DNA of 23,735 nucleotides, from the IMG/VR virus record IMGVR_UViG_3300012917_000012, positions 1 to 23,735 of that record; one strand, 5' to 3'. Positions 1-21,205 of the stretch are shown here, one piece after another. The translations under genes were made by a program, and so were the position numbers. Below the pieces are notes generated by a model that saw only the letters and a list, made by a program, of their open reading frames with translations, had not been told where the DNA came from and searched no databases. How positions within the stretch are numbered: the first letter of the stretch is position 1; each line of letters begins with the position of its first letter. The DNA is from a virus.

Positions 1-1132
1 CACCTAAGAAACCCAGTGTTTTCGGATCACACTCTTCCTCACCTTTCCTACGTTGGTCATTTCACCTCAGGCTGATTGGTGATCAGCATCTACAGGTTGC
101 ACCCTGCATGCATCCTTGAGGGGTACCTTGCAAACAGTATCTATCAGCGATACTCCGCTCCGCGATAATTCCGCGGCGGCACGGCACACAAGACTGCCTC
201 ACTTCTGCCACTGAGATTTATTTCCAAGTCAGTTTATTTCCCGGGGACTCCGAGAGGAAACGTTTAGGACTGGCCTCGGTTCCTTTACCAAGCGACTTCG
301 TGTTGTCCGATCTTGCGGAGAACATCTGGTTGCTCTACACCATGTAAAGGTAGACGATTTGAACGTCCTCGGAACCTACACTCCGTCCAAAGAACGATGT
401 GTATCCTACTTGTCTCATACTATACTATGAACACTAGCCTATGAGTACATCCCATAAGTTGTTACGTATGAGACGATTATTCAAAGCTACTCCACGTGAG
501 GCGTGGATGATGCCGCTCTGTGGTTTTTAACGACTCCGTTTGGATCGGAGAGCTTCGTTAAAAGGACTTGTCCGGTCGTCTCCGTGCACAGAGGTACGCA
601 TCCTATTGTCTCCGTTTTTAGCCTCCACAGGTGACATTGCGGGTGGCATCATCAGTTGCGTCTGCCGGGGTTATTAATCGCACTTTCAACCCTTTTGATT
701 GCGCCACACTCTCGATACCTGTCAGTCGAGTAGGACTGGACTCGAACCAGTACAAGTACTGATGTAGCCATTCTATGCTGCTCTTTTAATCCTGCAGCTA
801 AGTGGACTGAGAAGCCTCGGTCTGCTTTCGCACCCATAAGGATACATGTTACGCATGTATGCCGGGTCTCTCCTCACTAGGATGGGTCACCACTCCATCA
901 CCACTCACCCACGTTCCTGGGCTGCGACTTACATGATCTCTCTGTCTGCGCCCACGGATTTGAGACCGTGTTAGTAAACGGGACAGTGCCAAGGATCAGT
1001 AGTATCGGACACGAGGACTTCAGTAGGTCAGAGTTGCACTCGGTACTCTGGTCAGCTTTACCAGAGATTATTACCTATTATTGGCATCACGTCTAAGGTG
1101 AACCTCAGGTCATCTAGCACCTGGCTAGCGCC
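1..1132 (-). ncRNA. Candidate very large structured non-coding RNA (left end outside window)
   Basis: No convincing gene lies in this stretch, in a genome where genes otherwise overlap. It is packed with perfect complementary arms: 71-76/82-87, 160-164/172-176, 250-254/275-279, 334-338/350-354, 412-420/466-474, a nested set 509-513/598-602, 516-522/587-593, 525-533/555-563 and 534-538/546-550, then 668-672/688-692, 711-715/726-730, 842-848/854-860, 881-885/895-899, 1046-1052/1060-1066 and 1106-1110/1119-1123. Leftward reading is favoured by a GAAA (GNRA) tetraloop at 823-832, tRNA-like arms, the direction of neighbouring genes and a possible promoter at 1139-1167. Large phage RNAs of the GOLLD and ROOL classes have this size and genomic setting, and some GOLLD RNAs contain a tRNA. 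Assignment to either class is inference only. Confidence 0.62.
735..798 (-). other. tRNA-like segment (T-arm and D-arm mimics) inside the large RNA
   Basis: Read leftward, 751-747 and 739-735 form a 5-bp stem around the loop TTCGAGT (746-740), which fits the TTCRANY consensus of a tRNA T-loop exactly. A 5-bp stem GCTGC/GCAGC (798-794/781-777) with a 12-base loop lies 25 bases before it, close to the D-arm to T-arm spacing of a tRNA. No acceptor stem pairs with the seven bases after the T-arm, and no good anticodon stem is present; a competing CAGTAC/GTACTG hairpin sits between the arms. It is therefore a tRNA relic or mimic rather than a normal tRNA, or coincidence. Confidence 0.35.
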
Positions 1133-1138
1133 GCGAGT

Positions 1139-1167
1139 GATATATGCGACTAGTGGCAGATTAACAA
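1139..1167 (-). promoter_or_regulatory. Possible sigma70-type promoter for the large RNA
   Basis: Leftward, TTGTTA (1167-1162) is followed after 17 bases by TATATC (1144-1139). Each hexamer matches four of six consensus positions. Transcription would start near 1132, at the edge of the hairpin-rich region and just after the stop of the gene ending at 1169. Position and spacing support it; the hexamers are imperfect. Confidence 0.4.
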
Positions 1168-1168
1168 A

Positions 1169-1414
1169 TTATTTCTTTTTCTGAGGAGGTATCCATTCTG
1201 AAATATTATCCTCAATAGTTTCAACTTTATCTAAGTATTTTGGTACAGCTTCTCGGAAAGCTTGTTTACGCAAATTCCCATTGTGAGGGATACTTGCGAT
1301 AGCTTCTTCAGAAGCTACATCCATTAGATAATCAATCGCCTCCTGTTTGGAGTCGAAGAATTTGGTTTCTTTCTTACTGTTACGTGTACATTCTGCTCGA
1401 AAGATCGCAGCCAT
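1169..1414 (-). CDS. Hypothetical protein, 81 aa
   Basis: Not recognised. The protein is charged and probably alpha-helical (FFDSKQEAIDYLMDVASEEA), with a Lys-rich end (IPPQKKK). Two in-frame ATGs stand at 1420 and 1414; the GGAG just upstream is two bases from the first and eight from the second, so 1414 is preferred. It is isolated between structured element 1437-1697 and the large RNA, and is the last gene of the leftward SSB run. Low complexity is not evident, and the ribosome binding site makes it likely to be real. Confidence 0.6.
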   Translation of the reverse strand: MAAIFRAECTRNSKKETKFFDSKQEAIDYLMDVASEEAIASIPHNGNLRKQAFREAVPKYLDKVETIEDNISEWIPPQKKK

Positions 1415-1436
1415 CTTCATTACTCCAAGTTAACTG

Positions 1437-1697
1437 GCAAATTGCCTAACTATAAATAATAAATGCCTGAAGCGGAGTGCTAAATTTCCGATCTCTTCAC
1501 CTTGTAAGGTTACTCACCCATCAAATGGCGTGTGAGGAAGCTGTTCTCACCTCATCAGGCATTTACAAATTATGCCCGCCGCGCGCTAATCAGAGGAATT
1601 TAACCTCTTGCCGCGGGCTCTACCAGGTTCTTTGTAATGCTGGCAGGAGATACCTAACTAGATGAGTAGTTAGGCAACACTTAATCTAACGATTAAG
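1437..1697 (-). ncRNA. Structured RNA element between genes (element B)
   Basis: About 270 bases without a gene carry a chain of perfect helices: a 10-bp closing stem 1461-1470/1555-1564 enclosing GTGAG/CTCAC (1532-1536/1546-1550); GCCCGC/GCGGGC (1574-1579/1613-1618) enclosing AGAGG/CCTCT (1592-1596/1604-1608); CCAG/CTGG (1623-1626/1640-1643); CCTAACTA/TAGTTAGG (1653-1660/1667-1674); and CTTAATC/GATTAAG (1680-1686/1691-1697), which overlaps the stop codon of the upstream gene. Read leftward it precedes the gene starting at 1414, so it could be a long 5' leader, a riboswitch-like element or a separate small RNA. No known family was recognised. Confidence 0.6.
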
Positions 1698-2286: not shown

Positions 2287-2769
2287 TTAGAAATTGTAAT
2301 CACCTTTAGGTGCTTCTTTCAACCCAAAGATAGCTTCTCTTTCAGCGGGTTCTGCGAAGTCTTTTATCTCCCAAGGAATTAAATTATCAATTCTCACTGA
2401 CTCCCATCTGGCACCAATACCTTTGCCACCACCAGGAGACATAAATGGATAAATTAATAGTTTGATTGTAACTTCGGAACCATTACCAATACTATCGGAG
2501 ATAGGTACTCCATTTGAGTTAAGTACTGTAGGATTTGCGAAGGTAACTGGTAAACCTCTCATAATTTTTGTCATGGGACGTTTAAAAGACATAAAGGGAC
2601 CATCATCATCTTTCTTCAGAGTATTCTTAAGTCCTCTCGCCTTAAGTTCCATAATTTTTATTAAAGATTTATCATCGGGATAAAGATCTGTCTTCCAGTC
2701 TCCGAATTGATTAGGTGAATTGGTTTTACACCACTTACACTTACCACTTAAATAAACGTATTCAGTCAC
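2287..2769 (-). CDS. Single-stranded DNA-binding protein, T7 gp2.5-like
   Basis: Recognised from the pattern of podovirus SSBs: a first beta strand YVYLSGKCKW, then FGDWKTDLYPDD, a helix GLKNTLKKDDDGPFMSFKRP (residues about 45-64), the central block NSNGVPISDSIGNGSEVTIK and GKGIGARWESVRIDNLIPWE near residue 130. The protein should coat unwound DNA and coordinate the helicase and polymerase. At 160 residues it is shorter than T7 gp2.5 (232), and the end (APKGDYNF) lacks the long acidic tail of gp2.5. The start is GTG at 2769, overlapping the stop of the 56-residue gene by eight bases; the longer ATG frame from 2859 reads only out-of-frame sequence of that gene. Confidence 0.8.
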   Translation of the reverse strand: MTEYVYLSGKCKWCKTNSPNQFGDWKTDLYPDDKSLIKIMELKARGLKNTLKKDDDGPFMSFKRPMTKIMRGLPVTFANPTVLNSNGVPISDSIGNGSEVTIKLLIYPFMSPGGGKGIGARWESVRIDNLIPWEIKDFAEPAEREAIFGLKEAPKGDYNF

Positions 2770-2932
2770 TGGTAGTACTAACAATCTCCGGATCAATTGC
2801 TTCTGGATACATCCGGGTAAATTCTGCCATAGCCAAATCCTGTATCTTTGGCATCTCATCTTCTTTGGTCTCCACAGTCACAGTAGCAAACTCTGGTACC
2901 ATATATTCAAATTCAAATATATATGTTTTCAT
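2762..2932 (-). CDS. Small hypothetical protein, 56 aa, between polymerase and SSB
   Basis: Not recognised. It begins MKTYIFEFEYMVPEFATVTV, a likely beta hairpin, continues with an acidic helix (TKEDEMPKIQDLAMAEFTRM) and ends VSTTSD. Its ATG overlaps the previous stop as ATGA, and its end overlaps the GTG of SSB. The chain of overlaps with polymerase and SSB suggests coupled translation and a role connected to replication, but no function can be assigned. Confidence 0.6.
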   Translation of the reverse strand: MKTYIFEFEYMVPEFATVTVETKEDEMPKIQDLAMAEFTRMYPEAIDPEIVSTTSD

Positions 2933-3066
2933 TTGTATTTATTGGACTCCCAATATAATTCATACAATCTTTGAGGATTAGCTCCATAATGTTGTACGTA
3001 ATCTTCTAATATTCTTAATTTCTTTAGATCGTGTTTAAATGTTATTCTCATATCTTCGTAATACAT
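2929..3066 (-). CDS. Small hypothetical protein, 45 aa, coupled to the polymerase
   Basis: Not recognised. The sequence (MYYEDMRITFKHDLKKLRIL, ending LYWESNKYK) is charged and helical. The ATG shares one base with the polymerase stop (TAATG) and its TGA is part of an ATGA overlap with the next gene, so all three are probably translated by re-initiating ribosomes. It is too short for domain assignment. Confidence 0.55.
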   Translation of the reverse strand: MYYEDMRITFKHDLKKLRILEDYVQHYGANPQRLYELYWESNKYK

Positions 3067-5000
3067 TAATGGGTCACTTTCCAATTACTCCCTATTGTCC
3101 ACATTCGTGGATCATTGTGGTTCTCTCCATAGCTACCTGCTAATGGACACTTTAGTTTAAGTTCTACTCCTGTTTCTACTAGTGATTGACATTTTATTTC
3201 TGCTACTTGATGAGCAATCATCAAATCATTCGGTGTCTCTGTTTGCCACTCATCGTGTACGAAGTTAACTAGTTTAATAGCATACTCCTTGGGAAAGATT
3301 AAGTCAATCTTTTTCTTCCAACTTAATCTTGCTTTAGACATTATTATTTTTTCTCCCGACTGAAGATACCCAGACATAACCAAATGCCTTCTCTCGCCCA
3401 CGTCCATTCCAGGTATATTAATACGTCGTCCATCCAATCCTGTAAACCAGCCTCTACGAGCATCCCTCGGAATGGTAGTTCTTTTAAGGTAGTCGAGGCC
3501 GGTGTAACGCTCCATAAGTTTCGCAAGAGCATTTTCCGTCTGTGTTCGTTCACATCCAAGAATTTCAGAAAGTTTTCCAATTCCCGCGCCGAATAAAAAC
3601 GCATAGATGAAGCTTTTGGCAGCTGCTCTACTTCTACATATACTACCCAATATTCGCTGGTTGAGGGAGTGAGGGTCTGACTTATCTTCTTTCCGTCCTC
3701 TGACCAAGGCATTAGTAAACTCCTCATCGTCGATGTAGTGAGCAAAGATCCTAAGTTGAATTCCTTCTGCATCGACTCCCACTAACAATCTATTCTTGGG
3801 AGCAATGAATAAGGAACGCATCTCAGAACCAAGTAACTTAACCCTCCCATCTAAATAATGGCTATTAGGAATATTAGCCATGTTAGGCTTCTGATGGGCC
3901 ATCCTATGAGTCCAAGCTCCGATCGATAAAAACTGACCGTGGATACGACCCTCGGAGCTTACGAGGCCCAACCATTCCGTCAGTGTTCGTCGTCTGGACT
4001 CAAGTAGGATGCGTTTAGCCAGGGCACGTGCTGGCGCAGGAGCAGTAAAAGGTAAAGTACTTAAGTTTTCTTCGTTGATCTTCCACCCCGTCCTTTGTAA
4101 CGCCTCAAGCCTGCTTGGGAGAGTCTGTCGTTGGCGGAGGGCCTCAATGTGTGCTTTGGTTTTGACTGTTGGTTTCCAGCCAGCACTATTAAGTGTGAAA
4201 ATAATTTGTTTATGAGAACTAGGGTTGAAGTATCGGTATTCACATCTACAGAAAGAACCTCCGTTGTACTCCGATAGATCGCCACTTTTAATCCATCGGA
4301 AGTCCGATCTATTAAGAGTCCCATATTGGGTGACTCGTGGAGTGATTTCACGAATACAGTGCAAGCGAGGAGGAAAGGATCTTCCGATGTCATCATCTAG
4401 TTCCTTTAGTTCCTTGGTTACTTTCTCTAGAAGAGAAGTACACTTACCAGTGGCAAACCCAAAGCCAGTATTACTAAGCTCCAGGCAATCAGAGTAAAAC
4501 TCTTGTTCCGTGTTGATTGCGGACTTATTGCAGCTATGCTTAATGTAGCTACTGAACAGAGCATTGTAGACCAGTAAACAAAGTCGAACATCTGTTGCAC
4601 AGCGATCCTCCAGTTCTTGAGAGTATTTAGACCAGTCGGAGAATAAGTTCTTAGGAAAGTTTAGTTCTTCTCCGTAAGACTCTAGAGAGTGTCCTCCTTG
4701 TCGGGAGTAGTTGTTGAGCTTGCTAACCACAAGAGTATCAATACACCGATCACTTGTATAAGAAGATAGATTAAAATGAAGGAGATTAGAAAGGACGGGA
4801 AAATCATAACCGATAACATTGTGGCCAATCCATAGAGACACGCACTTACTAAAAACCAGAAACTTTTCTTTCTCCACGGGATCATCACTGACTCTCCTAA
4901 ATGTATATAGTTCACCAGTGTCGATATCTAGACAACAAATAACCCAGATCTTCGTGGGATTATCTTTACCATTAGCTTCAATATCAATAACTACTCGCAA
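3066..5000 (-). CDS. DNA polymerase, family A, with 3'-5' exonuclease (T7 gp5-like)
   Basis: This is the replicative polymerase. The N-terminal DnaQ-type proofreading domain shows Exo I DIE (D6, E8), Exo II GHNVIGYD (N61, D66) and a likely Exo III CATD (D137), where the usual Tyr four residues before the Asp is Arg133. The polymerase domain has motif A GVDAEGIQLR (D410), motif B R458-xxx-K462-xxx-Y466 in RAAAKSFIYAFLFGAG and motif C VHDE (D583). T7 polymerase also has Tyr at the Y466 position. At 644 residues it is somewhat shorter than T7 gp5 (704). The frame is closed by a stop directly upstream, so the only ordinary start is TTG at 5000, overlapping the preceding gene by ten bases with no clear Shine-Dalgarno site. 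Confidence 0.95.
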   Translation of the reverse strand: MRVVIDIEANGKDNPTKIWVICCLDIDTGELYTFRRVSDDPVEKEKFLVFSKCVSLWIGHNVIGYDFPVLSNLLHFNLSSYTSDRCIDTLVVSKLNNYSRQGGHSLESYGEELNFPKNLFSDWSKYSQELEDRCATDVRLCLLVYNALFSSYIKHSCNKSAINTEQEFYSDCLELSNTGFGFATGKCTSLLEKVTKELKELDDDIGRSFPPRLHCIREITPRVTQYGTLNRSDFRWIKSGDLSEYNGGSFCRCEYRYFNPSSHKQIIFTLNSAGWKPTVKTKAHIEALRQRQTLPSRLEALQRTGWKINEENLSTLPFTAPAPARALAKRILLESRRRTLTEWLGLVSSEGRIHGQFLSIGAWTHRMAHQKPNMANIPNSHYLDGRVKLLGSEMRSLFIAPKNRLLVGVDAEGIQLRIFAHYIDDEEFTNALVRGRKEDKSDPHSLNQRILGSICRSRAAAKSFIYAFLFGAGIGKLSEILGCERTQTENALAKLMERYTGLDYLKRTTIPRDARRGWFTGLDGRRINIPGMDVGERRHLVMSGYLQSGEKIIMSKARLSWKKKIDLIFPKEYAIKLVNFVHDEWQTETPNDLMIAHQVAEIKCQSLVETGVELKLKCPLAGSYGENHNDPRMWTIGSNWKVTH

Positions 5001-9537: not shown

Positions 9538-9641
9538 GCAACTCGCAACAAGAGTTGCAGTTAATAGTGCCCCCGACCAAGTGTGTGGTTAATGGTCGGG
9601 GGCTAGTACTCGATTGGTGTGAGGGATACAACCGAGTACTA
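9538..9641 (-). other. Three-hairpin RNA array in intergenic gap (element C)
   Basis: Three perfect stems fill the gap: GCAACTC/GAGTTGC (9538-9544/9552-9558); an 11-bp GC-rich stem GCCCCCGACCA/TGGTCGGGGGC (9569-9579/9593-9603); and TAGTACTCG/CGAGTACTA (9604-9612/9633-9641), which contains the stop codon of the 456-residue gene. None is followed by a T-run on the leftward strand, so they are not ordinary rho-independent terminators. They may protect or separate the two halves of the transcript or control the next gene. Confidence 0.65.
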
Positions 9642-11009
9642 TCTCATAGTGAATTTCTTCTGTTGGGTAATAATAGTCGGAGGCTCAGCTAATGATTTAG
9701 GAGTAGGTTCTGTGAGCGCTTCGATTGCAGCTTCTTGGCGAAAGAGAGCGTAACACAAATCACGAATTAGTTTGGAAGCAGCAGTGGGATTTTCTTTAAT
9801 CAATGTAGTACGATGCTCTTCCTTCGGTCCTCCGAATACTTTCATACCAGTTTCAAGAGTCCACCCAGTTTCATCCCAGAATGTCGGAGATGCCTTTTCA
9901 TTCTTCTCCATTTCTTCCGGAGACATAACTTGCTGAGTGTTAACGTCAATAGCGCTAACAAATTTCAACAGTTTGTCTTTCATCACATCGTTGAGGATTT
10001 GCGGTGGATCCGTAGTAGTGCTAGGCGATATGGGATCTTGAGCAGCGAGGTGTTTCGATGTACGGATGTTCCATCCTTGTTGTCTGGCATTATCAACCAT
10101 GTTCGGGAGAATAGACACCCATGGTCTGCTGTTCTTCCATCCTGGAGGTTCGTCACGTCCATGATATTTTTTGTACAAGGCTTTCATATCATTAGCCTTG
10201 ATAATATTAGCTGGCATTTGTCCTTCATACAGGACGGTGGACGAAGTGTTTGTAGTATCGTCGATCTTGTTTCCAGTTGCAGTCCTTGCAGCCGCTGCAC
10301 TCGTGCCACTCATCAACGACGTTCTTCCCTTGCGTCCAGAAGGAGGGTCAGCTTTCTTTTCCTCCCATCCACAAGTATCGTTAGTAAAACCCCATGAATA
10401 ATCATGGGAGTCTTTCGCTGCAAAGTAGACGAAACCACCATCACCTGGACACAAGATGGCAACAGAGATTTCTTTGTCATAGTTTTCGATGTCTGTTTGA
10501 AAGACTGGGCGTTTAATCTTGTCTAAGAATTTTGTAATGTCTGCCCCAGAGTCTTCCCATTTTTCTTGTATCTTGGGATTTAAATATTGATCGCAGAATA
10601 GATACGGTCGTCCTTCAGGCGAGGTGTTGGTCTCTAGTGCGGGAAATTCGCCGTCGATGAATGCCAGACACTTAGGTATAACATTGGTGCCTTCGGTATC
10701 TTCAATCAAAATGATTGGTTGAATGTTAGGATGTTCAGAGTCTTTTTCAGGATCTAGTGTTACGCTGTTAGCCTCCTTGCCGAGTATGACAATCTTATCA
10801 ACGTCTTTGTTTTCTTCCGTTTGAAGGAAACGTTTGATACCATCGGCAGTAGCACCTTCAGCGGCCATGTCGTATAGGATTTCGCCATTCTGGACGAATG
10901 CGAAACCTACCCAAGAATTATACTTGGCAGCCGCTCGGGCCAAGTAGTCGTCTGGCGGTAAGTTGCCTTTGTTGGCATAGATCAAACAAGTCCGGCTAAC
11001 AGTCGACAT
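9639..11009 (-). CDS. Hypothetical protein, 456 aa
   Basis: Not recognised. The N-terminus (RTCLIYANKGNLPPDDYLAR, then WVGFAFVQNGEILYDM) slightly recalls class II amidotransferase-type Ntn folds, but the Cys is residue 8 rather than 2, so this is only a possibility. A middle segment SVAILCPGDGGFVYFAAKD is followed by a Ser/Thr/Ala-rich linker (SLMSGTSAAAARTATG). The C-terminal 200 residues are Pro- and Lys-rich. AAAGGCG precedes the ATG by ten bases, and the membrane-protein gene ends five bases upstream, so the two are likely co-translated. Confidence 0.65.
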   Translation of the reverse strand: MSTVSRTCLIYANKGNLPPDDYLARAAAKYNSWVGFAFVQNGEILYDMAAEGATADGIKRFLQTEENKDVDKIVILGKEANSVTLDPEKDSEHPNIQPIILIEDTEGTNVIPKCLAFIDGEFPALETNTSPEGRPYLFCDQYLNPKIQEKWEDSGADITKFLDKIKRPVFQTDIENYDKEISVAILCPGDGGFVYFAAKDSHDYSWGFTNDTCGWEEKKADPPSGRKGRTSLMSGTSAAAARTATGNKIDDTTNTSSTVLYEGQMPANIIKANDMKALYKKYHGRDEPPGWKNSRPWVSILPNMVDNARQQGWNIRTSKHLAAQDPISPSTTTDPPQILNDVMKDKLLKFVSAIDVNTQQVMSPEEMEKNEKASPTFWDETGWTLETGMKVFGGPKEEHRTTLIKENPTAASKLIRDLCYALFRQEAAIEALTEPTPKSLAEPPTIITQQKKFTMR

Positions 11010-13848: not shown

Positions 13849-14046
13849 TTAGTTATCTATCCAGAATGGACCTTCTCTCTCATATCTTTCTGAACAAGGA
13901 TCACAGCAACAAACAATAGTATTAGTGTTTTCATTAGCAAACTCTTTAAAAGAGTTTATTGTTTCATCAAATGAGACAACTTCCTTCTTGCCACACCCGT
14001 AGCATCTAAACCTGACTATCTTAGTTTCTATGTTATTTATGTCCAT
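13849..14046 (-). CDS. Zinc-ribbon-like protein, 65 aa
   Basis: Two Cys pairs, FRCYGCGKKE (residues about 14-20) and TIVCCCDPCSERYE (about 44-54), flank a short helical insert, the usual layout of a four-Cys zinc ribbon. The protein ends with FWIDN. GGGAG precedes the ATG. It lies one base after the KTSC gene. DNA, RNA or protein binding is possible; nothing narrows it. Confidence 0.6.
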   Translation of the reverse strand: MDINNIETKIVRFRCYGCGKKEVVSFDETINSFKEFANENTNTIVCCCDPCSERYEREGPFWIDN

Positions 14047-14047
14047 G

Positions 14048-14242
14048 TTACCATCTCCCTCTCACGTACATATTAAAGAACGATCCTTTGGAGTCAGCTT
14101 CATAGAACCTACGAAAGTCTTTAAATGAAACGTTAAGATAATAGTAATCAGTACCGTTAATAGTTACGAAGCACGTGTGTGTCCACGTGTCGTAAGCTAT
14201 CTGTTCGATAACCTGAGAGTTAACTGATGTAATCACTCTCAT
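14048..14242 (-). CDS. KTSC domain protein, 64 aa
   Basis: The sequence fits the KTSC domain closely: SQVIEQIAYDTWTHTCFVTI, then the strand-turn YYYLNVSFKDFRRFYEA and the signature DSKGSFFNMYVRGRW. KTSC domains are short, often stand alone in phages or fuse to other domains; their activity is not settled. It is the first gene behind the consensus promoter at 14267-14295, so it is likely made early and strongly. Confidence 0.85.
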   Translation of the reverse strand: MRVITSVNSQVIEQIAYDTWTHTCFVTINGTDYYYLNVSFKDFRRFYEADSKGSFFNMYVRGRW

Positions 14243-14266
14243 TGCCTTATCTCCGATTGTCCTTAT

Positions 14267-14295
14267 AGTATATATGATTAAAGTCTCATTGTCAA
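14267..14295 (-). promoter_or_regulatory. Strong sigma70-type promoter for the accessory and primase operon
   Basis: A perfect leftward TTGACA (14295-14290) is separated by exactly 17 bases from TATACT (14272-14267), five of six. Transcription should start near 14260, about 18 bases before the KTSC gene, with GGAG and AAGG in the leader. It lies just downstream of a terminator that ends the previous leftward unit. Confidence 0.85.
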
Positions 14296-14460
14296 ATCGA
14301 GTAGGCTTATTCTCATATATACAGACAATAGAAATAAAAACTATTTAAGCATTTATGTTTTATTTTTCAATTATTTATTGTTTCGAAGCCTACCTAGTGG
14401 CGCGCGAGATGTGACAGGTGGCAATGCCGCGCGCTATATTTATGTGTATATAACGGTAGA
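14296..14460. other. AT-rich intergenic region with long-range inverted repeat
   Basis: No gene. GTAGGCTT (14301-14308) and AAGCCTAC (14386-14393) form an 8-bp inverted repeat around a very AT-rich 77-base stretch. Next to it lies GCGCGCG/CGCGCGC (14400-14406/14428-14434), a GC-only stem. It could be upstream promoter DNA, a regulator site or a remnant of a mobile insertion. Confidence 0.4.
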
Positions 14461-14497
14461 CAATAAAAAACCCCATGCCATTGCTGACATGGGGTTG
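14461..14497 (-). terminator. Rho-independent terminator, leftward
   Basis: Read leftward, a 9-bp stem AACCCCATG/CATGGGGTT (14496-14488/14477-14469) with a 10-base loop is followed at once by TTTTTT. It sits three bases after the stop of the 47-residue winged-helix gene and closes that operon. Confidence 0.9.
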
Positions 14498-14500
14498 TGG

Positions 14501-14644
14501 TTATCTTGGTAGTAATCTTTCTATTATCTGTCTTACTTGTTCGACAGATAACCCGGTTAGTTTAGCTAACTCTTGATTAGTTAAAGGTTTGTTAGCCTTA
14601 TGCAAAGCTAACAATACCTTATCCTCATTAGGTGTGGTTTCCAT
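14501..14644 (-). CDS. Winged-helix-like DNA-binding protein, 47 aa
   Basis: The protein is nearly all one helix-turn-helix: helix DKVLLALHKANK, then LTNQELAKLTGLSVEQVRQI and IERLLPR. This is the pattern of a minimal winged-helix or MarR-type recognition module. The ATG lies six bases after the stop of the 421-residue gene. As last gene of a unit driven by a promoter with an adjacent inverted repeat (16305-16324), it could be its autoregulator; this is inference. Confidence 0.65.
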   Translation of the reverse strand: METTPNEDKVLLALHKANKPLTNQELAKLTGLSVEQVRQIIERLLPR

Positions 14645-14650
14645 ATGAGG

Positions 14651-15916
14651 CTACTTCTTATCGCGAGCAACAACTAATTCTTTTACTGAAGCTTCGAATA
14701 CAGCGTCTGCGAACACAGTGTTTAGATATGCTCGCAGTTTGAATGCTGTATACTTCGCATCGTCCGTTGCCTTGATACCAGACTGGAATTCAAGCCAACG
14801 AGATTGTTCTAACTCTGGCTTGTCGAACAGATAGCCAACGATTGCGTTTAAGTTGGTGTATTGATCGGTCCAACTGTTAACGTCTCTTGCCTTGGGAACG
14901 GAACCGGTCTTGATGTCCTCTGATTTCTTTTTAGCACTCGCAATCAACCCATTGTCACCGCCTAAGTTGGCGTGTTCGCGCTTAATCATATCTTCCGATA
15001 TGCGCCAACGTAAGAACTGACCGACAGACATACGTTCGGGGGCCTTAGTTGGGGCTTCCTTGTTCTTGAACCATAGTACCTTAGTGCTTTTCTTGACTGG
15101 CCCCATGCCGACGATGTTTAGATGGGTCGGATCGTAATCCGCAGGTACTTTGTCTTTGCCCTCGTATTCATCACGTACCCATTGAAACTCAATGTTCTTT
15201 AGTTTCTTTATCTTCTCCAATTGGATACGCAACTTAGCTGCTGTCCTTACTGCGGATAACATCTGATTGATTGCAGATGTTTCATCTTCATCGTCAGTTT
15301 CCCGCGTTTCGACCGGACGTGGCTGATCTACACTATCATCTTTGACCAGCTTGGCTTTGGCTTCCTCTTCCTCCAATGCCTTCTTGGTAGCAAGAGCAAG
15401 TTTGCCGGACTTGGTAGTTAGAACAAGGGTCTTATAGAAAGACACCTTACCTTTGCGCCCACCACTGCCATCCACAGTGTCATAAACAAGCATATTAGAA
15501 CGCTTGTCCGCAGGTAGTAACGACATAGCCAATGCCGCTTCGCTCTTGGTAGATCCGGGAAATGGCAGGTTAGCCATTTGCGTCGATGACAGGAAGCGTT
15601 CCATAAGAGCCAACATATTGATACTCTTATAGTTATCCTCCACCTTGGCATTGACTGCCACCTGCAAAGCTTCTTCGAACTCAGGATGTGAGGACAACAC
15701 CTCGCCAATCTCAATCGCAGTAGCGACGACGGCGTTGGCTTCGCTATCTTCGGTAGCCTTGTTATTGGCAGCATTGGCATCGACCAATGCTTTGCTGTCC
15801 TTCTCTTGTTGTTTCTTATTGTATGTGTCGATCGCATCTTGAGAAGGTGACTTCACATCAGCCTCAACAGACTTGGTTGCAGGCTTTTGTGTACGTGTCT
15901 GAGACATACGTGCCAT
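14651..15916 (-). CDS. Hypothetical protein, 421 aa
   Basis: Not recognised. Residues 1-75 are polar and disordered-looking (Gln, Lys, Ser, Asn). A folded part follows, with EIGEVLSSHPEFEEALQVAV and LLPADKRSNMLVYDTVDGSG, a coiled Lys/Glu-rich stretch, an acidic linker (RETDDEDETSAINQ) and a C-terminal domain with WFKNKEAPTKAPERMSVGQF. The start at 15916 is chosen because AAGGTG stands six bases upstream; the longer frame from 15994 overlaps the preceding gene. Its size and early position suggest an abundant early protein of unknown role. Confidence 0.7.
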   Translation of the reverse strand: MARMSQTRTQKPATKSVEADVKSPSQDAIDTYNKKQQEKDSKALVDANAANNKATEDSEANAVVATAIEIGEVLSSHPEFEEALQVAVNAKVEDNYKSINMLALMERFLSSTQMANLPFPGSTKSEAALAMSLLPADKRSNMLVYDTVDGSGGRKGKVSFYKTLVLTTKSGKLALATKKALEEEEAKAKLVKDDSVDQPRPVETRETDDEDETSAINQMLSAVRTAAKLRIQLEKIKKLKNIEFQWVRDEYEGKDKVPADYDPTHLNIVGMGPVKKSTKVLWFKNKEAPTKAPERMSVGQFLRWRISEDMIKREHANLGGDNGLIASAKKKSEDIKTGSVPKARDVNSWTDQYTNLNAIVGYLFDKPELEQSRWLEFQSGIKATDDAKYTAFKLRAYLNTVFADAVFEASVKELVVARDKK

Positions 15917-15975
15917 TGTATTCACCTTGATGTTTAGACCCTTACATTGCCCGCATCTTGCCCGTGGTATGTTAG

Positions 15976-16170
15976 TTAACAATAGTATTCCCATGCCTCA
16001 ACATAGTATCGCGGCCAATCCTCATTGGATTGCCACGTTGAGGCTAGTCTTAGATCGACAGCGATACGAATAGCAGGGACGGGGTAGTTTGGTTTGCAAT
16101 CGTTGTCACAAATATAACAACGATCACTGCATTTGTGAGCATAAGGACAGTAATAGATATTACAGATCAT
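15976..16170 (-). CDS. Cys-rich small protein, 64 aa
   Basis: Six Cys lie in the first 25 residues (C3, C8, C14, C18, C21, C25) in MICNIYYCPYAHKCSDRC and YICDNDC, followed by KPNYPVPAIRIAVDLRLAS, and a further Cys is the last residue. The PNYxVPAI block is shared with the protein at 12942-13214. Zinc binding is likely. GAGGTG before the ATG at 16170 supports this start over 16194. It is the first gene behind the promoter at 16274-16302. Confidence 0.65.
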   Translation of the reverse strand: MICNIYYCPYAHKCSDRCYICDNDCKPNYPVPAIRIAVDLRLASTWQSNEDWPRYYVEAWEYYC

Positions 16171-17777: not shown

Positions 17778-17899
17778 TAAAATATTACAATCTCCTTTAT
17801 TTTCTTTTCATCTCTGTTATTCCAAAGGAATAAACCACTAGGATTAAACTGGTACTTAGCTACGGTACCATCTTCAAATATTATTTTAATAGTATTCAT
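17777..17899 (-). CDS. Small hypothetical protein, 40 aa
   Basis: MNTIKIIFEDGTVAKYQFNP, then SGLFLWNNRDEKKIKEIVIF, looks like a small beta-rich fold with a final strand. The end overlaps the next start (TAATG). No strong ribosome site is seen upstream, but composition and linkage make translation likely. Confidence 0.5.
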   Translation of the reverse strand: MNTIKIIFEDGTVAKYQFNPSGLFLWNNRDEKKIKEIVIF

Positions 17900-17920
17900 A
17901 AATAGTTCTTGACTTTCTAT

Positions 17921-18088
17921 TTAATACGATTGCTCCAAGATACCATTTCTATGTAACTGATTTAACCATTTAACTAGATTCTCAATATCTGGATTGTTCT
18001 TATACATAGTAAATGTATGTCTTTCATTTTGATTATCATAATAAGCTATTGTATCTGTATCTTTCTGATTAAAATATATAAATAACAC
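17921..18088 (-). CDS. Possible small protein, 55 aa, GTG start
   Basis: The open frame (LFIYFNQKDTDTIAYYDNQN, then NNPDIENLVKWLNQLHRNGI) is protein-like and helical near the end. Its GTG at 18086-18088 abuts the -35 box of the rightward late promoter, and no good Shine-Dalgarno site is visible. A shorter form could begin at an internal ATG (MYKNNPDIENL). It would be the first gene of the leftward run. Confidence 0.35.
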   Translation of the reverse strand: MLFIYFNQKDTDTIAYYDNQNERHTFTMYKNNPDIENLVKWLNQLHRNGILEQSY

Positions 18089-18117
18089 TTGACAAATCTT
18101 TCTAATTAGTGTATAAT
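18089..18117 (+). promoter_or_regulatory. Consensus sigma70-type promoter for the rightward virion genes
   Basis: TTGACA (18089-18094), 17 bases, TATAAT (18112-18117): a perfect consensus. Transcription should start at about 18123-18126, which is at or just before the ATG at 18126. It is the only promoter seen for the rightward block, where genes are spaced too closely for others. Confidence 0.9.
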
Positions 18118-18125
18118 ATACGGTT

Positions 18126-18476
18126 ATGAGTAATATACATTCTATTTCTAATAAACAGTTACACGAAGGCTACTTAATGCTGGACCACAGGGCATCTCCG
18201 GGTTTCACACCAGAAGAAGCCAAAGTCTTGGGTTATGGTGCTGAAGCTTCTGGAGAAAAACTCTATGAAGCTAAGACTAATCACTGTAGTCACTGTGGTA
18301 CTGTTGTTATTATGAATCCACAGCGTACACGAGAAAGATCTTATTGTCAAGCTTGCAGTAAGTATATTTGTGATAATTGTGGAATAGCCATGAGATTACC
18401 AGATTATGTACATAAAACTTATATTCAACAACAAGAAGATGGATTAACAATCTTCTCAAACCTAGGAAATACTTAA
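18126..18476 (+). CDS. Zinc-ribbon protein, 116 aa, possibly from a leaderless start
   Basis: Three CxxC pairs stand in the second half: NHCSHCGTVV, YCQACSKYIC and CDNCGIAMRL (residues about 53-88), fitting two linked zinc ribbons or a treble arrangement. The N-terminal 45 residues are polar. Position at the head of the virion operon suggests a structural or regulatory protein, with no closer match. The ATG at 18126 is at the predicted transcript start; an internal ATG at 18177 has AAGG eight bases upstream and would drop 17 residues. Confidence 0.65.
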   Translation: MSNIHSISNKQLHEGYLMLDHRASPGFTPEEAKVLGYGAEASGEKLYEAKTNHCSHCGTVVIMNPQRTRERSYCQACSKYICDNCGIAMRLPDYVHKTYIQQQEDGLTIFSNLGNT

Positions 18477-19399: not shown

Positions 19400-21205
19400 A
19401 TGGCTTTAGTCCGAACTAATGTAAGCACCACTGTTAAAGCACCAGGTACTGCAACATCAGTCACTACAGCTAGTTTTACACCAGCTGATAATTCATTAAT
19501 AGTTGTTTTCGCTGGTCTTCAATCAAGTAATAACTCTTTAGCAGCTAGTATAAGTGGCGGGAGTTTAACTTGGACTAAACAAGCACAAGCTGGTGTAGAT
19601 GTATCTAATTTTGGACACTTCAGTATTTTATGGACAGCTCCTGTAACAACGGGGGCGTCTATGACGGTAACAGTAGGCAATATGCCTTCAGATGGAACTG
19701 CTGAAGGTATAGTCCATGTTTTCTATTATACAGGATATAATACTAGTACACCTGTAGGAGGAACTGCTTCTGCAACTGCTGCTTTTAACTCAACAGTCAA
19801 TTTAACATTAAGCTCATCTCCTGCTACGACGTCAGAAGTAATAGCCGGGGCATCGGATGATACAGGTTCAGGTGCAGCTAATATTACAACAGGTACTGGT
19901 TGGACACAACAGACACATGTTAGTGATACTGCTAATACTGATTCTCAGACTCAGACTAGAACAAGTTCAACCTCTACAAACGTATTATGGAATAGTAATG
20001 CTGCTGGTACCAATGGATGCGCTGTTGCAATAGAAATTATAGTTGCTGCAGCTGCAGGAAATCCATTTGTAAATAATACAGATTTACCACCTAGGGGATT
20101 TCTCTATTCAGAATGGCAGAAATGGACAGAGAGTGGATTAACTACTCTTCCTACTCCTACTGTATTAACTCAGACTCTACGTATTAAAAGTGATTTTCCT
20201 AATCCTTATCCAGTAACATGGTATAAATCTTGGGAACATAGAGGTAATGTTCTATTACCGAGACCCACTCCTTTTAGACCTTTTGATTATCCGAATCCTC
20301 AACCTATATCTTGGTATCGGAGTATAGAGGTAAGTGGAAACTCTCTAAGAGCAATTGTTCAAAATCCTTTTAGACAAAATGATTGGCCTAATCCTCAACC
20401 AGTAAACTGGTATCAATCATGGACTAAAAATTTTCAACAGGCTATACCGTTTAATCAAACGGATTGGTCTTTACCAAAGACTTATCAACCATTGTTACAA
20501 ACATGGTCTCAAAGTCTTAATATCTTTTATCAATCTGAGACATTTCCCTTTGTACAATCAGATTATCCTAATCCACAAAGAATAATTTGGTATAAAGATT
20601 GGTCTCTTAATTTATTAGAAACTACTTTAGCTCCTGCTTTTCAAGCTCCATTTAATCAGTTTGATTGGCCATTACCCAGAACATATCAACCTATTGATCA
20701 ATTCTGGCAGAATAATTTACAACTTCTACCTAAACCTACACCATTCTTTCAGAATATAGATAGCCCTCTTCCAGTAGTTAGTCAGCCTATAGATGCTACT
20801 TGGTTACAAAATCTATCTGAGTTTATACAATCTAATACATTTCCTTTCTCTCAAACAGATTGGAAGAATCCTTATCCATTATATTGGTATCAGGATCATA
20901 ATCAGAATTTAGTAATCTATTTACCAGTAGGTGCAAAACCATTTAGTCAATTAGATTGGCCATTAACTGGATCACCTCAGCCGATAGATCAATTTTACTA
21001 TCAGTCTTTAGTTCTTAATTTACCTGAGCCTCCACCTCCTGAAATAATTACATCAGCTGGTCGGTGGATATCTCCAGAAGAGGTTATATCAAGCATTGCC
21101 CGTAAATACGGATCAATCGGAGGTCTCGCAAGTGCGAACTCCCGGACAGCGGCTGAGAGAAGCCTTCTTGCATCCATTGCCGCCGCCCATAGATGGAAAA
21201 AATAA
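19400..21205 (+). CDS. Repeat-containing putative virion protein, 601 aa
   Basis: Residues 1-220 form a Thr/Ser-rich beta domain with WTKQAQAGVDVSNFGHFSIL and repeated 'TxxSxT' strands. Residues about 222-545 contain around ten repeats of 30-38 residues, each with PFxQxDW followed by PNPxPxxWYxSW or PLPxxxQPIDQxW (unit starts near 223, 264, 291, 323, 350, 383, 417, 448, 482, 514). A final 55 residues are helical (GRWISPEEVISSIARKYG). Short aromatic-Pro repeats of this type should form an extended or fibrous array. Position with virion genes suggests a fibre or surface protein; function inferred only. Confidence 0.7.
   Translation: MALVRTNVSTTVKAPGTATSVTTASFTPADNSLIVVFAGLQSSNNSLAASISGGSLTWTKQAQAGVDVSNFGHFSILWTAPVTTGASMTVTVGNMPSDGTAEGIVHVFYYTGYNTSTPVGGTASATAAFNSTVNLTLSSSPATTSEVIAGASDDTGSGAANITTGTGWTQQTHVSDTANTDSQTQTRTSSTSTNVLWNSNAAGTNGCAVAIEIIVAAAAGNPFVNNTDLPPRGFLYSEWQKWTESGLTTLPTPTVLTQTLRIKSDFPNPYPVTWYKSWEHRGNVLLPRPTPFRPFDYPNPQPISWYRSIEVSGNSLRAIVQNPFRQNDWPNPQPVNWYQSWTKNFQQAIPFNQTDWSLPKTYQPLLQTWSQSLNIFYQSETFPFVQSDYPNPQRIIWYKDWSLNLLETTLAPAFQAPFNQFDWPLPRTYQPIDQFWQNNLQLLPKPTPFFQNIDSPLPVVSQPIDATWLQNLSEFIQSNTFPFSQTDWKNPYPLYWYQDHNQNLVIYLPVGAKPFSQLDWPLTGSPQPIDQFYYQSLVLNLPEPPPPEIITSAGRWISPEEVISSIARKYGSIGGLASANSRTAAERSLLASIAAAHRWKK

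Follow-up and report, generated by a model that had tools for sequence, protein, structure and literature searches.

A giant structured RNA with tRNA-like modules at one replication-operon site in a clade of uncultivated phages

What does a phage encode in a terminal stretch of more than a kilobase that holds no gene? The window analysed here, a whole linear virus record of 23.7 kb, raises this question at positions 1-1132, the final stretch before the contig end. Replication genes on its minus strand include those for a family A DNA polymerase, a primase-helicase and a gp2.5-like ssDNA-binding protein (SSB). The nearest cultured relatives of the polymerase belong to roseobacter phages (34-40% identity), one of which, CRP-4, is classed in the Zobellviridae. 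An initial annotation had proposed that the gene-free block specifies a giant structured RNA transcribed leftward, either a divergent GOLLD or ROOL RNA or a new class.

A polymerase search returned 80 loci. Two of these, L002 and L003, whose polymerases are 86% and 83% identical to that of the window, match the block at 69-76% DNA identity and carry full copies of the RNA (L002, about 13900-15520; L003, about 13887-15460). In both, the full block comprises 1576-1628 bases and has a small gene on either side, one upstream and one downstream. The block is indeed gene-free: its longest ORF has 61 codons' worth of protein (61 aa), no protein frame is retained across it, and most indels separating it from L002 and L003 would shift a reading frame. 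The three codon phases carry similar numbers of substitutions relative to these relatives (76/76/81), unlike those of the SSB gene (15/47/17), indicating that the block is non-coding. The extent first assigned to the RNA was real but covered only part of it, as the 5' end lies near 1137-1157 and the 3' part (about 0.5 kb) lies past the left contig end.

The number of perfect helices, which had been offered as evidence of structure, turned out to be unremarkable. The block contains 26 perfect stems of at least 6 bp compared with 20.2 in shuffled sequences, 11 of 100 shuffles scoring as high, and its two stems of at least 8 bp (1.2 in shuffles) are not an unusual count. Neither did the possible promoter stand out, seven being found where 5.8 were expected. 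The minus strand of positions 1-1000, on the other hand, had a better fold than every one of its 20 dinucleotide shuffles (z -2.9), and several of the individual elements held up in L002 and L003. The 9-bp helix singled out earlier exists and is retained, and the predicted GNRA tetraloop corresponds to a GAAA-capped minus-strand hairpin present in both relatives. Of the nested helix set, the outer helix (512-522/580-593 region) is supported by a compensatory change from CTCTGTG/CACAGAG in the window to CTCTATG/CATAGAG in L003, but the inner part is replaced in the relatives. The hairpin at 841-861 differs in sequence among the window, L002 and L003, with pairing intact in each.

Covariation was assessed without circularity by predicting helices from each single sequence and then projecting them onto relatives. 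Among the 137 pairs with both bases changed in the window's group, 99 could still form (72%, null 49%); the coding sequence neighbouring the block gave 25% in the same test, compared with 32% expected. When seven groups were pooled, pairing persisted at 744 of 1253 doubly changed pairs (59%; group nulls 40-49%), while the exonuclease coding sequence of the same phages yielded 62 of 180 (34%; nulls 32-47%). RNAalifold windows with z<-3 numbered 28 of 140 in the RNA and 1 of 57 in coding sequence. It is this comparative evidence, and not the number of perfect helices, that leads us to accept a giant structured RNA, whose reality we regard as practically certain on the strength of sequence comparison. 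Folding energy and RNAalifold statistics did not decide the strand; the orientation, leftward in the window and on the same strand as the replication genes, is taken from the T-arms described below and from the direction of the operon.

Table 1. Features of the window that bear on the RNA and its genomic setting.
Feature	Position	Strand	Basis or remark
Giant structured RNA, 5' ~70%	1..1157	-	L002/L003 homology; compensatory changes; flat codon phase; frame-breaking indels; synteny in 56 loci
Second tRNA-like module (T3)	69..120	-	Covariance model R1, E 9.8e-12 (window itself in model)
9-bp helix 412-420/466-474	412..474	-	Retained in L002 and L003 with one G-U
Nested helix set	509..602	-	Outer helix with compensatory change; inner part replaced in relatives
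Putative permuted tRNA-like core	653..751	-	Covariance model R2, E 1.8e-9; pair counts
Two hairpins	820..861	-	Strongly covarying stem 841-861; GAAA-capped hairpin 820-833
Small CDS, 83 aa (MSIFRTT...)	1169..1420	-	Immediately upstream of RNA; homologues only in L002 and L003
Gp2.5-like ssDNA-binding protein	2287..2859	-	phrog_112, E 6e-7, and synteny; upstream flank of RNA insertion site
Family A DNA polymerase	3066..5000	-	Basis of phylogeny

Divergent versions of the RNA occupy the same site in 56 loci, all from uncultivated phages, between the SSB gene and a gene encoding a Cas4-like exonuclease (Cas4-domain, phrog_1990). In these carriers 1.5-4.2 kb separates the two genes, and the interval contains no broadly conserved gene. 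In 33 non-carrier relatives outside the clade, by contrast, either nothing separates them or the gap stays below 0.9 kb, the first gene-order comparison giving gaps of at most about 0.85 kb; in the cultured phages CRP-4 and CRP-13 they are adjacent with no insertion. In loci where both ends were definable, the RNA region spans 1354-1839 bases (any untranslated flanks included); the typical length, about 1.5 kb, is close to that of 16S ribosomal RNA. The 32 carriers tested in a polymerase tree form one clade with support of 100/100, so a single gain of the RNA is probable. A second, alignment-based search added 27 carriers and 5 non-carriers, which served as a held-out set. A scan of genome contigs added two distant polymerases only: L159, with a 389-base gap and no RNA, and L158, which is too short for the presence of the RNA to be judged. 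Together, these genomic comparisons show, at the level of sequence, a structured non-coding RNA of about 1.35-1.85 kb in one phage clade and its absence from sister phages; we infer that it is expressed as a discrete RNA.

The junction has other occupants among non-carriers. A tRNA gene lies exactly between the SSB and exonuclease genes in L041 (Trp; tail 935-1010, about L041:12813-12888) and in L051 (type undetermined; tail 913-987, about L051:12911-12985), and L047, L054 and L077 have short junction spacers that, judged by eye, are hairpin-rich. Among carriers, an ordinary upstream tRNA-Leu(UAA) gene is frequent (e.g., L027:3014-3099, L013:3665-3750, L029:1106-1188, L069:2732-2818).

Recurrent tRNA-like modules are embedded in the RNA. 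Using a pattern of a 5-bp stem and a TTCRANY loop, with expectation derived from dinucleotide shuffles, we found 37 T-arms on the coding strand of carrier regions and one on the reverse strand (0.28 expected); held-out carriers contained 33 forward and none in reverse. A slightly wider loop pattern identified 77 T-arms in 44 of the 56 carriers, up to three per RNA, and their 35 different stem sequences indicate that the stems covary. The canonical T-arm is absent from the other 12 carriers, and several RNAs fit neither of the two covariance models, R1 and R2, that we built around these arms. R1 describes the T3 module, a hairpin with a GTGMAA-type loop followed by AT and then a T-arm. Its 13 sequences show double changes at all 11 pairs, and it recovered held-out matches down to 1.2e-14. 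In the window, T3 consists of a GTGCAA-loop hairpin (92-107), AT, and a 5-bp/7-nt arm (71-87) that has a changed loop and occupies the position of the canonical T-arm in other members.

R2 describes a second module, T1-D, in which a T-arm is followed by a stem, paired along its whole length and capped by a short loop, then TG, and then a D-arm (GCG...GG...A-CGC). The D-arm stem varies to GTG/CAC in L128 and L142 and to GTC/GAC in L032. Acceptor-like stems abutting the T-arm include GGGGGA-CAGC-TCCCCC and CCCGGT-TGGA-ACTGGG. In about a dozen members pairing extends from one end to the other of the stem between the two arms, and for this reason a reading of T1-D as no more than two tandem tRNAs was set aside. 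TGGCG is the top enriched 5-mer after T-arms (13 of 43, compared with 3%). A strict D-arm pattern was matched in only 4 of 43 cases (compared with about 1%), owing to inserts in the loops, and the R2 model was used instead. It gave held-out matches of 6.1e-9 to 1e-4, and across its 13 aligned members 100% of paired cells pair, compared with 82% when shuffled. The residues of the tRNA elbow (U8, A14, G18, G19, A21, G53, U54, U55, C56, R57, A58 and C61) occur in permuted order. All are present in 5/5 sequences of seed alignment A4, and those of the T-arm recur in 77 elements. Pattern matching supplied the module seeds, which introduces some circularity into seed-alignment counts but not into the held-out searches. 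The corresponding core in the window comprises a T-arm (735-751; ACTGG TTCGAGT CCAGT), an acceptor-like hairpin (711-730), and a D-arm (655-706; TG GCG ... GGCAGA CGC) with an extra hairpin inserted in its D-loop.

We consider it quite likely that T1-D represents a circularly permuted tRNA core. With its ends closed by a loop, such a core would have no CCA end of its own. ARAGORN and Rfam RF00005 called no tRNA within the block of the window or within the other RNA blocks that were scanned, and the same scans detected genuine tRNA-Leu genes elsewhere in these records. The D- and T-arms of the best-preserved permuted modules closely resemble those of the carriers' tRNA-Leu(UAA), which suggests that the modules may have descended from a phage tRNA-Leu-like gene.

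A small protein gene accompanies the RNA, lying between its 3' end and the exonuclease gene in 49 of the 56 carriers and in none of the 33 non-carriers. The association was seen both in the first set (26/29 carriers and 0/28 non-carriers, with similar ORFs occurring elsewhere at 4 per 100 kb) and in the held-out set (23/27 and 0/5). As called, the proteins range from 86 to 187 aa, mostly about 90-112, and evolve fast; none had a Pfam or PHROG match above threshold. Their layout is a Lys-rich stretch followed by one predicted hydrophobic helix near the C-terminus. The L002 gene, for example, lies at 15527-15796; in the window's phage, the gene would fall past the contig end. The RNA and the small, Lys-rich, putatively single-pass membrane protein very probably constitute a two-gene module, and composition and position suggest that the protein binds RNA and is located in the membrane.

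Searches against known RNA classes gave no assignment. Scanning the block and its relatives against Rfam with cmscan produced no match, GOLLD and ROOL included, and the only convincing Rfam matches in the window and relatives were skipping-rope RNA (outside the block) and ordinary tRNAs. The block had no match to group I or group II introns or to other Rfam ribozymes, sub-threshold RF01998 matches occurring in other records only. A blastn comparison of the block with cultured phages found nothing similar, and the open-licence PMC literature yielded no description of such an RNA. In whole-record searches at E<=10, the GOLLD model (RF02032), which represents the 3' region conserved throughout that family, matched 0 of 13 records, a result compatible with a very divergent member because no control, including Mycobacterium phage Myrna, matched above the cut-off. 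ROOL (RF03087) and OLE RNA (RF01071) likewise matched 0 of 13, with their control genomes also giving no match. The suggestion of a divergent GOLLD or ROOL thus went unsupported, albeit in searches that had no true positive control. A giant, leftward phage RNA of a new class, in contrast, is supported by the covariation, the T-arms, the held-out model matches and the clade distribution.

tmRNA was also considered. Its tRNA-like domain has an acceptor and a T-arm, a large insert takes the place of the anticodon region, and in the gene for the permuted two-piece tmRNA of alphaproteobacteria the T-arm precedes the 5' half. The present RNA resembles tmRNA, especially this permuted form, in these traits, but differs in its capped acceptor stem, its lack of CCA and its retained D-arm residues. 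ARAGORN and Rfam tmRNA scans were negative, a cursory look revealed no tag reading frame, and this identity was rejected. Other uncharacterised large phage RNAs include an orf-less transcript of about 0.8 kb from a gene-free gap in ICP1 and the lncRNAs of phage K (PMC7567579, PMC9241854); these come from unrelated phages, and their sequences were compared only through the matchless blastn search of the phage collection.

A parallel to the two-gene arrangement exists in OLE RNA. Its gene has as tandem neighbour oapA, which encodes a membrane protein and occurs only in OLE carriers, and the RNA needs OapA for its membrane localisation (PMC9723947). In both cases a large, ornate non-coding RNA is paired with a tandem gene for a small membrane protein that is limited to RNA carriers (here, 49/56 against 0/33), an analogous arrangement without detectable homology. 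OLE RNA, however, is bacterial and 0.6 kb long, whereas the present RNA is from phages, is about 1.5 kb and contains tRNA-like cores; the present protein differs from OapA in being single-pass with a Lys-rich tail and has no detectable homology to it. By kind, the RNA ranks among the large, ornate RNAs; we found no counterpart to it as a class, nor to its end-capped, putatively permuted tRNA cores.

Taken together, we favour, with a probability of roughly 0.55, a clade-specific structured RNA with permuted tRNA cores and a membrane-protein partner, forming a membrane-held particle. We postulate that (i) the RNA would fold into a single large particle; (ii) within it, the permuted tRNA elbows would serve as rigid elements of tertiary structure or as faces for docking; and (iii) the Lys-rich protein would bind the RNA and hold the particle at the inner membrane, as OapA does OLE RNA. 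The Lys-rich part precedes the membrane helix and, by the positive-inside rule, is predicted to face the cytoplasm. Such a particle, as a scaffold or RNP, might early in infection help the phage to replicate or to take over its host, a role that its place in the replication operon makes probable. The membrane tether, drawn by analogy with OLE, is for us slightly short of an even bet. More tentatively still, the module could be a membrane-anchored phage RNA machine built around end-capped permuted tRNA domains from a tRNA-Leu-like gene, possibly catalytic or a replication scaffold; in that case the RNA would add a further class of giant RNA beside OLE, GOLLD and ROOL.

Several alternatives were weighed against this proposal. 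GOLLD and ROOL, whose function is unknown, have tRNAs as neighbours and assemble into protein-free cages (PMC12286853), and the present RNA, about twice as long, shares with them phage origin, very large size, an intricate fold and an association with tRNA genes. It could similarly form an RNA-only cage, of the kind that GOLLD builds as a 14-mer, or a homo-oligomer that encloses, for example, tRNAs or ribosomes, with the membrane protein an incidental or late partner. We think this unlikely: the RNA matches neither family in sequence, structure or covariance model in the searches described above, is accompanied by a lineage-specific membrane protein, and carries its permuted tRNA-like elements inside rather than having tRNAs beside it.

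A somewhat more doubtful alternative is that the T-arms and permuted cores serve as a tRNA decoy, titrating a tRNA-recognising host enzyme or defence effector such as an elbow-binding nuclease, a modification enzyme or RNase P. The presence of up to three T-arms per RNA and the retention of elbow residues fit this idea, and RNase P and T-box RNAs are reported to clamp on tRNA and the ribosome to contact the elbow (PMC4919913, PMC4810234). A decoy, however, would render 1.5 kb of other conserved structure and a membrane partner superfluous, and it would have no free acceptor end. Nor does the RNA retain anticodon loops, which anticodon nucleases usually attack.

The genes for the membrane protein and the exonuclease directly follow the RNA on its own strand, and the L002 copy has no terminator-like site at its 3' end, as would be expected of a very long, structured, cis-regulatory 5' leader of both genes. 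We nevertheless judge this improbable, as non-carriers retain the same exonuclease gene without the RNA, and 1.35-1.85 kb far exceeds known leaders; we know of none near this size and none with tRNA-core modules. Finally, that the region is a non-functional, decaying tRNA array or mobile intron remnant is scarcely credible: the tRNA genes at the junction in L041 and L051 show that tRNA genes do land there, but compensatory evolution across a deep clade, the absence of any loss among the 32 carrier lineages of the tree and the lack of an intron family match in the block argue against it.

To our knowledge, only a handful of RNAs this large and complex exist outside rRNA, and those from phages all lack a known function. 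In the present case, function would be made testable by a candidate protein partner next door and by tRNA-elbow modules with known kinds of binding partner; the fixed site in the replication operon and the clean natural comparison of carriers with non-carriers provide further handles. The RNA would also be an evolutionary case of permuted tRNA pieces built into a large RNA.

Other features of the window were noted. Three large ORFs, at 9639-11009 (456 aa), 14651-15994 (447 aa) and 19400-21205 (601 aa), have no Pfam match; the first two also have no PHROG match, and the third has only a weak one to phrog_38872, a family of unknown function (E 3e-4). Upstream of the small gene that precedes the RNA is a leader-like element (1431-1679, minus strand), which is 82% identical in L002 and L003. 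Within it, TTGCCTAACTA (1667-1677) can pair with nearby CTAGTTAGGTA (1651-1661) or, alternatively, with TAGTTAGGCAA (1442-1452), in a switch-like manner. The skipping-rope RNA (RF02924; 1465-1560, minus strand; 34.2 bits, E 1.3e-5), which narrowly missed its gathering score of 36.7, sits inside this element and occurs in the window alone, L002 and L003 lacking this insert. Farther along, ORF direction changes at about 17800-18126, long ORFs running leftward to the left of ~17.8 kb and rightward past 18.1 kb, and the A+T-rich stretch between the two sets (about 30% GC) is likely a divergent promoter region.
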